This document shows, one piece after another, positions 38,224-40,771 of a stretch of DNA of 64,000 bases. How positions within the stretch are numbered: position 1 is the first letter of the stretch; every line of letters begins with the position of its first letter. A program made the translations under genes and the position numbers. A model generated the notes under the pieces. It did not search any database, was not told where the DNA came from, and saw only the letters and a list, made by a program, of their open reading frames with translations. Origin of the DNA: Prosthecobacter gellanilyticus (GTDB lineage: Bacteria; Verrucomicrobiota; Verrucomicrobiia; Verrucomicrobiales; Verrucomicrobiaceae); contig NZ_BKAG01000010.1 of assembly GCF_007992435.1 (NCBI RefSeq), positions 124,001-188,000 of the forward strand, read 5' to 3'.

Positions 38224-38877
38224 TCATGCAGAGGGCACTTGTTTGCCTGCTTTTCGCGCCACAGTGATGAAAGCCTCCTGCAAATAAAAAGGCTCCAAGG
38301 GTTCCTCAGCACGGCTTATCACCTCATTTTCAGGTAGTTGTGAAACCAGCCTGCCCAGTGAGACTACATCTGGATGCGCCAAGGTAACGACATCCAGACC
38401 GAGAGGCACCTTCGCATCAAAAGTCAGCCAGGTCCCCCCAGCCTCGACAAGGGATGCGGCTTCTTCCGCAATCATCAGGCGGGGTGCCTGCACCATGCGG
38501 CCAAATTCCACCACTGCGTGGTAGTATTGCCCACGCCTTGCATCCCCCAAAACCGAGTAAGTCCCCACCTTCGAGGTAGCGATGGACGGCCATCCAAGAA
38601 CTGGCCAGCCGCGAGACAGAGCCACTCCCTGGGCAGCAGCGATGCTGATGCGCACCCCGGTATAGGATCCCGGTCCGGTGCCGATCACCAGCACAGCGCT
38701 TCTCCCCTGAGGGATGGCGGCGAGGGCTTCCGTCAGCGGCGCAAAGACCTGCGCATTGTGGGACCGCTCAGACTGAAACGTAGATTCAAACAGCACCTCT
38801 TCCCCGTCCACCACAGCCAATGCCCCACGGGACGTGGAGAGATCAAGGGCGAGGACAAGCGGAGACGGCTGGGACAT
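38224..38877 (-). CDS. tsaB: tRNA threonylcarbamoyladenosine biosynthesis protein TsaB
   Basis: The 217-residue protein matches TsaB: LALDLSTSRGALAVVDG at the N-terminus, SHNAQVFAPLTEAL, then GPGSYTGVRISIAAAQGVALS, the family hallmark. It ends LEPFYLQEAFITVAR. TsaB is the non-catalytic partner of TsaD in making t6A on ANN-decoding tRNAs. The start is set at 38877 because AAGGGGAG lies just upstream. The frame could be read further to 39006, but that part covers the first structured repeat. The tandem RNA-like elements at 38951-39085 and 39126-39258 lie directly upstream on the same strand. Confidence 0.93.
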   Translation of the reverse strand: MSQPSPLVLALDLSTSRGALAVVDGEEVLFESTFQSERSHNAQVFAPLTEALAAIPQGRSAVLVIGTGPGSYTGVRISIAAAQGVALSRGWPVLGWPSIATSKVGTYSVLGDARRGQYYHAVVEFGRMVQAPRLMIAEEAASLVEAGGTWLTFDAKVPLGLDVVTLAHPDVVSLGRLVSQLPENEVISRAEEPLEPFYLQEAFITVARKAGKQVPSA

Positions 38878-38950: not shown

Positions 38951-39085
38951 GGACAAAAAGGAGGCGCGGGGTCCTTTCGGATCTCCGCGCCTAGCGGCCA
39001 TTTCACTTGGACTCTTCATTGAAGTCGAGTTCCAAAGACGTGGTCACTGATGGATCGCCTGCCCCTTCACCGGCGGATGTATCAC
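38951..39085 (-). ncRNA. Candidate structured RNA element, copy 1 (leader of tsaB)
   Basis: About 135 nt, minus-strand sense. It begins near the CGGATGTATCAC motif at 39074-39085, carries the 18-nt box (39040-39057; plus-strand GTGGTCACTGATGGATCG), and ends in a hairpin. The hairpin pairs AGGCGCGG (38962-38969) with CCGCGCCT (38985-38992), with a further inner helix of GATCC/GGACC closed by GAAA on the minus strand. It runs into a T-rich tail. The terminator ends about 75 bases before the tsaB start. Two other copies lie at 39126-39258 and 40495-40630. Confidence 0.6.
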
Positions 39086-39125
39086 GCGCAGATTATTTCC
39101 AAACATCTGCCGCAGCCCTCCGCTC

Positions 39126-39258
39126 GGACAAAAAAGAGGCGCGGGGCTCTTTCGAGTCTCCGCGCCTGAAGGCCACTGGCTCATTTCTCTTCTTATGGTC
39201 GAGGCCTGAAGTCGTGGTCACTGATGGATCGCTGCTGATTCTCCGGGTGGATGTACTT
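39126..39258 (-). ncRNA. Candidate structured RNA element, copy 2 (in tandem with copy 1)
   Basis: A second copy arranged like copy 1. The box is at 39214-39231 and the hairpin arms at 39137-39144 and 39160-39167. The inner helix reads GACTC/GAGCC closed by GAAA on the minus strand, different in sequence from copy 1 but still paired. The tail on the minus strand is CTTTTTT, a good U-tract. Box-to-hairpin spacing is 46 nt here against 47 in copy 1. It starts about 70 bases after the stop of the WD40 gene, behind that gene's own terminator-like hairpin. Confidence 0.6.
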
Positions 39259-39284
39259 GGGTGAAGTTTTTCCGCAGATTCCAC

Positions 39285-39311
39285 AAAAACTTCCGGCGCT
39301 GGACAGCGCGG
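39285..39311 (-). terminator. Probable intrinsic terminator of the WD40 gene
   Basis: On the minus strand a hairpin with GCGCT/AGCGC arms around a GTCC loop is followed by GGAAGTTTTTG. It lies 18 bases after the WD40 stop and before element copy 2, so copy 2 is likely to need its own promoter. Confidence 0.55.
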
Positions 39312-39328
39312 CCACTGTTTCGGATCAT

Positions 39329-40435
39329 CTATTTGGCATGGATCCGCCACAAGCGTGCGGTCGTGTCGAAGCTCCCTGTCAGCAGCACGCGGCTGTCAGG
39401 ACCGAAGGCAAGCGCACGCACCAGTTTGCCGTGCTGGAGCGGCAGGCCCACCGGCTGTCCGGTGGCGGCATCCCAGACATGCGCGGTGTTGCCGTAGCAG
39501 CCGGTCGCGGCAAATTTCCCATCCGGGCTGAACGCCACACAGCGCACGCCCGTGGGATGCTGGAGGGGCGGGCAGAGCGGCCGGCCGGTGGCCGCGTCCC
39601 AAAGTCGCGCCGTCTTGTCCATGCTGGCGGTGATCACACTCTCCCCCGTGGGGCTGAAGGCAGCAGCGCGTACCTGGTCGTCATGCCCCAGGGGTGGGGT
39701 CAGAGGCTGGCCGGTCAAAGCATTCCACACACGGGCCGATTTATCGAGACTGCCGGTCAGCAGCTTCGTGCTGTCGGGGCTGAAGGACAGGGATCGTATG
39801 GAACCTTCCTGCCGGACTTCGGTGCCAAGAAGCTTACCGGTTTGCGCATCGAGCAGCTGCGCGACGCTGCCGTTACCACTGATCGCCGCGAGCTTCGAAT
39901 CGGGACTGAAGGCGACAGCGTAGAAGCGCTGGTGGTCGCCAATGTTATCGCCGACCGGCTGGCCGGTGCGTGCATTCCACAGGTGCGCTGTCCCGTCCGT
40001 CTTGCTGTCGTGACTGCTGGTAAGAATGACACCGCCATCCGGACGAAACGCCAGCGAATAGACAAACCCCGGATGCGGCAGGATGGCGACCAGCTTTCCG
40101 CTGGCCACATCCCAGAGTTTAGCGCCCTTGTCACTGCCGCCGACGACCTGCGCGCTGTCCGGACTAAACGCAACCGGGTACACCCCGCCCTCGTGCGGCA
40201 GCGGTTCGCCATGCAGTTTGCCGGTCGCCACCTCCCAGATGCGCAGGAAATGATCCGCGCAACCCGTCGCCGCCCACTTCCCGTCTGGACTCAGCGCGAC
40301 CCCGTGAATGTCCGCCGGATGCGCCAACGGCGGAACCAGAGGTGACACCACAAACTCCTCGGCACGGAGCAGCATGGCTGGGACGATGATAGCGACGATA
40401 GCGGCGCGACAGAGATGCAGGGCGGAATGCGGCAT
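39329..40435 (-). CDS. Exported WD40 repeat protein
   Basis: The 368-residue protein has a signal peptide (residues 1-25, ending LLRAEE) and about eight WD40 blades, each ending in patterns such as ADHFLRIWEVATGK, DKSARVWNALTGQP, MDKTARLWDAATGRP and FDTTARLWRIHAK. The blades are closely similar to one another, as in recently amplified repeats. It should be a periplasmic or surface scaffold; no catalytic domain is visible. Upstream on the same strand, 60 bases before the start, is copy 3 of the RNA-like element. Confidence 0.9.
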   Translation of the reverse strand: MPHSALHLCRAAIVAIIVPAMLLRAEEFVVSPLVPPLAHPADIHGVALSPDGKWAATGCADHFLRIWEVATGKLHGEPLPHEGGVYPVAFSPDSAQVVGGSDKGAKLWDVASGKLVAILPHPGFVYSLAFRPDGGVILTSSHDSKTDGTAHLWNARTGQPVGDNIGDHQRFYAVAFSPDSKLAAISGNGSVAQLLDAQTGKLLGTEVRQEGSIRSLSFSPDSTKLLTGSLDKSARVWNALTGQPLTPPLGHDDQVRAAAFSPTGESVITASMDKTARLWDAATGRPLCPPLQHPTGVRCVAFSPDGKFAATGCYGNTAHVWDAATGQPVGLPLQHGKLVRALAFGPDSRVLLTGSFDTTARLWRIHAK

Positions 40436-40494
40436 GAACCAGAAACGACCGGAACACCGGGAAGTTTCCCAGGCACTTTTGACAGCGTGATCAT

Positions 40495-40630
40495 GGACAG
40501 CAAAGAGGCGCGGACCTTTTAAGGGGTCTCGCGCCTGACGGCCACTTCTTCACGTGCTCTTCTTCATCGGTCGAGCTTAAAGTCGTGGTCAGTGATGGAT
40601 CGGGCCTGTCCTTCTACGCGGATGCATCAC
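40495..40630 (-). ncRNA. Candidate structured RNA element, copy 3 (leader of WD40 gene)
   Basis: The third copy. The box is at 40585-40602 with one substitution against copies 1 and 2 (plus strand GTGGTCAGTGATGGATCG). The hairpin arms are 40506-40513 and 40529-40536, one end pair being a G-U. The inner helix is GACC/GGTC, again a different but complementary sequence. The U-tract is short (TTT). Box-to-hairpin spacing is 48 nt. The hairpin ends about 65 bases before the WD40 start. No gene precedes it on the minus strand before fabD (which is on the plus strand), so it would need its own promoter in 40630-40771. Confidence 0.58.
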
Positions 40631-40771
40631 GACACATTTTTTCTCTTTTCTTTGGGCCAGTGCCCGGCAGGCCTGGTCAGGAAACTGAGGCACAAGGGCT
40701 TGCATCGCCGGATGGCCGGTGCTCAATGACTCTTCCAACCGTCTCACCAACCTCCTCCCACTTTCCAATTC

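Follow-up and report, generated by a model that had tools for sequence, protein, structure and literature searches.

Three repeats in the window, the 64,000-nt stretch of Prosthecobacter gellanilyticus DNA that we analyzed, belong to a family of small structured RNAs that had not been catalogued before and is restricted to the genus Prosthecobacter; the family is new, and its kind, the small structured RNA, is already known. The explanation that we favor, and consider rather probable, is that the copies are stand-alone, sigma-factor-controlled small RNA genes of the minus strand, with an ECF promoter in the 5′ third and a terminated RNA of ~95 nt that would act in trans without Hfq.

Covariance-model boundaries on the minus strand place each ~135-nt copy within 2 nt of where an earlier note on this DNA had put it (Table 1). 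Copies 1 and 2 are 76% identical (E = 1e-17, whole-genome search of P. gellanilyticus). The 18-nt box that the note had described, GTGGTCACTGATGGATCG, does not differ between copies 1 and 2 and carries one change in copy 3; the sequence CGGATG, which it gave as an end common to all three, is present in copies 1 and 3, but copy 2 reads TGGATG. We likewise found no convincing protein in any copy: neither strand holds a conserved open reading frame. The inner helices of the GC-rich hairpin are complementary in each copy, and the compensatory changes ascribed to them are real. As had also been described, the minus strand of copies 1 and 2 has a GAAA loop followed by a U-tract; the U-tract of copy 3 is weak and interrupted (minus strand, CUUUGCUGU). 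Because a U-tract follows the GC-rich hairpin only on the minus strand, we take the window's minus strand as the sense strand; the terminator and the fold together suggest that this, the modeled strand, is the one transcribed.

Table 1. Positions in the window of the three RNA copies, their predicted parts, and neighboring genes
Feature	Coordinates	Strand	Evidence
tsaB, downstream of copies 1 and 2	38224..38877	-	TIGR03725 93.1 bits, above cut-off
Copy 1, whole conserved element	38951..39086	-	R1 124.7 bits, R2 110 bits
Copy 1, predicted transcript, ~95 nt, 5′ end inferred	38955..39049	-	fold -40.0 kcal/mol, z -5.33
Copy 1, terminator hairpin; U-tract 38955-38959	38962..38992	-	95% of cells paired, 36 sequences
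Copy 1, helix P2, 3′ arm AUGGCC	38996..39001	-	covariation
Copy 1, hairpin P3 (CUC...GAG) and loop	39012..39029	-	covariation
Copy 1, helix P2, 5′ arm GACCAC	39040..39045	-	covariation
Copy 1, -10-like GCGAT	39054..39058	-	CGAT 17 nt after CATCC; spacing exact in 28/32 copies measured
Copy 1, -35-like CATCC	39075..39079	-	motif alignment and spacing
Copy 1, A-rich box GGAAATAATC, upstream of promoter-like motif	39091..39100	-	A-rich block -19..-12 before CATCC, 33 aligned copies
Copy 2, whole conserved element	39126..39260	-	R1 124.5 bits, R2 104.4 bits
Copy 2, predicted transcript and 5′ end	39130..39223	-	z -2.55
Copy 2, terminator hairpin; U-tract 39130-39135	39137..39167	-	sequence and terminator scan
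Copy 2, -10-like GCGAT	39228..39232	-	motif scan
Copy 2, -35-like CATCC	39249..39253	-	motif scan
Copy 2, A-rich box	39267..39271	-	motif alignment
WD40-repeat protein gene, downstream of copy 3	39329..40435	-	PF00400, E 6.5e-63
Copy 3, whole conserved element	40495..40631	-	R1 133.7 bits, R2 111.2 bits
Copy 3, predicted transcript and 5′ end	40500..40594	-	z -3.95
Copy 3, terminator hairpin, weak U-tract	40506..40536	-	sequence and terminator scan
Copy 3, -10-like CCGAT	40599..40603	-	motif scan
Copy 3, -35-like CATCC	40620..40624	-	motif scan
Copy 3, A-rich box	40636..40643	-	motif alignment

As read from the alignment, the RNA consists of two hairpins: a covarying P2/P3 hairpin, followed by the terminator hairpin. 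The alignments were fitted to the covariance model and are thus biased toward its structure, for which slid and shuffled controls partly compensate: in 36 sequences, 87.2% of cells were paired over all helices, versus 75.9% in shuffled and 30-47% in slid controls. When the terminator was left out, P2, P2b, and P3 were paired in 81.4% of cells, versus 67.4% after shuffling (reached by 0 of 500 shuffles) and 28-48% after sliding, and their covariation score was 0.404, compared to 0.189 for shuffled alignments (again 0 of 500). The long-range pairing of GGCCA(C/T) with GTGGTC that the earlier note had thought possible is helix P2, which is supported by covariation across the 36 homologues: both sides change at five of its six pairs, with variants such as GACCAC/GUGGCC, GAUCAC/GUGAUC, GGUCCC/NGGACC, and GGUCAG/CUGACU. 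P2b is weak (58% paired). The terminator hairpin is paired in 94-95% of cells, and nearly all copies have the U-tract.

The first covariance model, built from seven P. gellanilyticus copies, identified homologues within the genus; a second, built from 24 sequences, found the RNA in 13 of 48 Prosthecobacter genomes at E ≤ 1e-7, with one to eight copies per genome. By covariance model, P. gellanilyticus itself has eight: besides the three window copies, contig C2 carries another three, and C23 and C27 have one each, at the end and at the start of the contig, respectively. Pairwise identity among them is mostly 60-79%, with a single pair at 93%. In a search of 289 genomes of the order, every strong match lay within Prosthecobacter and nothing convincing was found outside it; the other matches scored <33 bits over short stretches, and we rejected them as homologues, since they look terminator-driven. 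The 3′ half of the RNA also occurs in records of Prosthecobacter sp. VE4 and of Verrucomicrobia(ceae) metagenome-assembled genomes, while matches in an uncultured Clostridia bin and in Pseudomonas asuensis are presumed to be due to chance. Rfam 15 gave no match above the gathering threshold in the window; a permissive Rfam scan yielded only scores far below the thresholds, none of them over the copies on the minus strand. The proposal that the repeats are a candidate new RNA family is thus borne out: a covariance search of related genomes revealed homologues beyond this locus as well as covariation beyond the terminator hairpin, and the family has no Rfam match.

The two 93% identical copies at the C23 end (L009:2508-2632) and the C27 start (L010:1-124) are inverted, and both contigs end at the same site, as expected if a divergent RNA pair broke the assembly. 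A short palindrome resembling those of REP type, GCGGCAGAC...GTCTGCCGC, lies beside both (L009:2440-2480 and L010:155-182). In another genome, a decayed copy (L086:6990-7127, minus strand) keeps the promoter boxes and the P3 region, and its terminator is gone.

Upstream, the copies share a conserved order of elements: an A-rich block, the box ATACATCCGC, 14 variable nucleotides, and GCGAU. The A-rich block is found 12-19 nt before CATCC (33 aligned copies), and CATCC and CGAT start 22 nt apart, a gap of 17 nt, in 28 of the 32 copies measured. The gap sequence is random, and constant 17-nt spacing around a random gap gives CATCC-N17-CGAT the appearance of a -35/-10 pair. The 5′ third of the repeat is therefore probably a promoter rather than RNA, as judged from this spacing. 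Such a promoter would start the RNA just before P2, making a transcript of about 95 nt, with its 5′ end so placed, the more likely product. Thus, the earlier view of the whole 135-nt element as an RNA holds insofar as the element contains a structured RNA, but its 5′ third, including the CGGATG end, is more likely promoter.

The same motif occurs away from the RNA. In intergenic sequence, CATCC-Nx-CGAT was found nine times at x = 17 in 864 kb of P. gellanilyticus, versus seven times summed over ten other spacings; in the loci of relatives, these counts were 26 and 16. About 10 of the spacing-17 sites are not RNA copies, compared to ~2.3 per other spacing (Poisson, 1.4e-4). One RNA-free site lies ~30 nt upstream of a CsbD stress gene on contig C54, 4.6 kb from a sigma gene; a HAD-type hydrolase gene lies 66 nt downstream of another CATCC-N17-CGAT site on that contig, and further RNA-free sites precede a secreted repeat protein family that is found elsewhere behind the RNA itself. 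A close relative that lacks both the RNA and the sigma factor discussed below (G024) had no intergenic site at spacings of 16-18 in 372 kb, a small sample. A weight matrix of the A-rich block plus CATCC matched almost only RNA copies in intergenic regions of the 864 kb; the wider regulon signal emerged only with a motif that also included CGAT at 17 nt. A scan for the motif plus a terminator recovered copies 1 to 3 of the window and two of those on C2, in which CGAT is followed by the U-tract at 90-105 nt; it added RNA genes at C54:11918, L131:1366, and L131:1534, which the covariance model scored weakly or missed, and one further match on C1.

The RNA is linked to ECF sigma genes of one group, which lie 11-12 nt upstream of strong RNA copies at two loci (L072 and L075), 75-84 nt downstream of strong copies at two others (L078 and L082), and next to weak copies at three more (L127, L129, and L130). 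The best NCBIfam matches of these sigma factors are SigK and PRK12519, both below cut-off; for SigK (NF007228), the score was 138.6 bits against a curated cut-off of 226. Of the 13 genomes with the RNA, 11 had an ECF sigma match of >190 bits, and no RNA-negative genome that was searched had one; the two RNA-positive genomes without a close match (G001 and G011) are represented by assemblies that are 93-95% complete. On a FabD DNA tree of 45 genomes, RNA presence requires seven changes, and the nearest relatives of P. gellanilyticus lack both RNA and sigma factor. With most pairings, the sigma factor follows the RNA in six of six independent pairs and never the opposite (p about 0.03), a contrast that comes from one gene and six pairs, with uneven assembly completeness. 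As for an empty site, synteny near fabD was uninformative, because the gene order there is not kept in relatives. Taken together, adjacency and co-occurrence suggest that a sigma factor of stress type activates the RNA family and is gained and lost along with it. P. gellanilyticus has two sigma genes of this group (on C54 and C1), neither beside a model-found RNA copy. The region upstream of the sigma gene itself carries a different conserved block, not CATCC-N17-CGAT. In the 200 nt upstream of many sigma genes of the group (for example, L124, L126, L127, L130, and L072), we observed a conserved block, TCAGGCATACCCTGA, followed by GGGCYGGCTCGGGTTGTG, which may be the operator and promoter that govern the sigma gene.

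In the mechanism that we propose, each copy would be its own small RNA gene on the window's minus strand. Its promoter, composed of the A-rich block, CATCC, the 17-nt spacer, and CGAT, would be read by the SigK-like ECF sigma factor; transcription would begin a few nucleotides before P2, and the intrinsic terminator would end the RNA ~95 nt later. The RNA would be made whenever the ECF regulon, including the CsbD stress gene, is switched on, and it would act in trans and without Hfq, with the P3 loop or P2/P3 hairpin serving as the surface for base-pairing or protein binding. Sequence comparison yields the family itself, its strand, P2, P3, the terminator, a promoter-like motif of fixed spacing, and the sigma factor's adjacency and co-occurrence; from these we infer that the RNA is transcribed, where it starts, and that it depends on the sigma factor and acts in trans. 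Five of the eight P. gellanilyticus copies have no same-strand gene directly downstream, having a convergent gene instead, which is why we propose trans action, and the family is probably both trans-acting and Hfq independent: the 99.9% complete P. gellanilyticus genome gave no match to the Hfq model PF17209, which was positive in five control genomes. As for antisense targets, the conserved 18-nt box performed no better than shuffled boxes against 400 gene starts, and the start of the ECF gene on C1 of P. gellanilyticus ranked 216th of 645.

Were the RNA and its terminator instead part of a 5′ untranslated region, they could act in cis as an attenuator or leader that controls read-through into the downstream gene. 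Of 36 copies overall, 28 are followed by a gene on their own strand, an arrangement that purely stand-alone genes would not need; when orthologues are collapsed by our own grouping, this holds for 17 of 24 loci (one-sided, 0.03). Some partners are constant, among them the ECF genes of L078 and L082 and a CecR-like TetR gene, which in six genomes lies 78-141 nt downstream of an RNA subtype with a GGGCGUG terminator (L081, L086, L087, L089, L091, and L092) while the gene upstream differs; in addition, one gene family occurs both behind the RNA and behind the bare promoter. With such same-strand neighbors and steady partners, some loci may be subject to attenuation. The convergent genes that face five of the eight P. 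gellanilyticus copies, however, argue against the family serving throughout as leaders of protein genes, the downstream genes have no common function (tsaB, WD40, TetR, transporter, chemotaxis, and nuclease), and we identified no alternative fold that would break the terminator. We therefore regard a leader role for the family as unlikely, and stand-alone RNA genes appear to be the simpler reading.

We give still less weight to transcription of the whole 135-nt repeat, in which the A-rich block would be the -10 region and the RNA would run from ACAUCC with a 5′ stem, P1 (CGC/GCG). The position of the A-rich block relative to CATCC would suit this, and P1 is paired in 82% of cells, but P1 is near-invariant where paired, with almost no covariation. 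The T of a -10 hexamer is missing from the A-rich block, and a sigma-70 consensus scan there gave no match; full elements (~120-140 nt) fold at z -0.7 to -2.8, less significantly than the predicted transcripts (88-101 nt; z -2.6 to -5.3), and the motif also stands, with no other part of the RNA, upstream of protein genes. Very improbable, in our estimation, is an intergenic repeat of MITE or REP type, mobile or passive, that spread without any RNA function. Its multiple copies, patchy distribution over the genus, tandem pairs, the C23/C27 contig breaks, and decayed copies could all be so explained; against it stand the divergence of the P. gellanilyticus copies outside their one close pair, the lack of terminal inverted repeats in the alignment, compensatory changes that preserve the helices, a promoter-like motif and terminator at fixed distances, and a presence correlated with one sigma factor.

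Two further RNA types were observed. One, which the covariance model missed or gave a low score, comprises two RNA-like units (C54:11918, plus strand, of P. gellanilyticus, also L182:11890-12050; and L131:1505-1690) that have the same promoter-like motif with a spacer of 16, a common segment, GCGAAAAGCAGCTYGACC...ATGGACTGAGCAACCGAAGC, and a different terminator. The other, at L129:2440-2625 and L131:1340-1520, near ECF sigma genes of the SigK-like group, has the same spacing of the promoter boxes together with a long hairpin and, as its terminator, TCCTGTCCGGC...GCCGGACAGGA. A broader, tentative idea, which we doubt more than we credit, is that a lineage-specific class of two-hairpin RNAs, of several sequence types, forms an Hfq-free RNA arm of the ECF stress regulon, sharing one promoter and an almost constant length of ~95 nt, gained and lost with the sigma factor, and at some loci doubling as leaders that attenuate regulon genes, the sigma gene among them.

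Our search of the open literature returned no description of this RNA family, no regulatory small RNA for Prosthecobacter, and no paper that brings small RNAs together with Verrucomicrobia and a (general) stress response under ECF control. The family would supply Verrucomicrobia with an RNA that has a testable controller, one ECF sigma group, and a testable promoter; it would offer natural pairs of gain and loss, and would be a case of multicopy sigma-dependent RNAs in a host without detectable Hfq.

The enterobacterial RNAs RybB, MicA, and MicL are short, intergenic, and ECF/sigma-E dependent, each with its own alternative-sigma promoter and intrinsic terminator. The Prosthecobacter RNA resembles them in being short and intergenic, with an intrinsic terminator and a predicted alternative-sigma promoter of its own; unlike them, it is multicopy, genus restricted, and borne by a host without detected Hfq, and no sequence relation to them was found (no Rfam match). 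The promoter boxes of mycobacterial SigK are CCATCC and CCGAAT, which CATCC and CGA(A)T resemble, a likeness that we treat as a lead only; SigK or PRK12519 is also the best subfamily match of the linked sigma factor, although its score falls short of the SigK cut-off. PrrF1/F2 and OmrA/B are tandem paralogous small RNAs in which each copy has its own terminator; the Prosthecobacter RNA differs from these in sequence, host phylum, and regulator, but shares with them an arrangement of adjacent, diverged copies, each with a terminator of its own.
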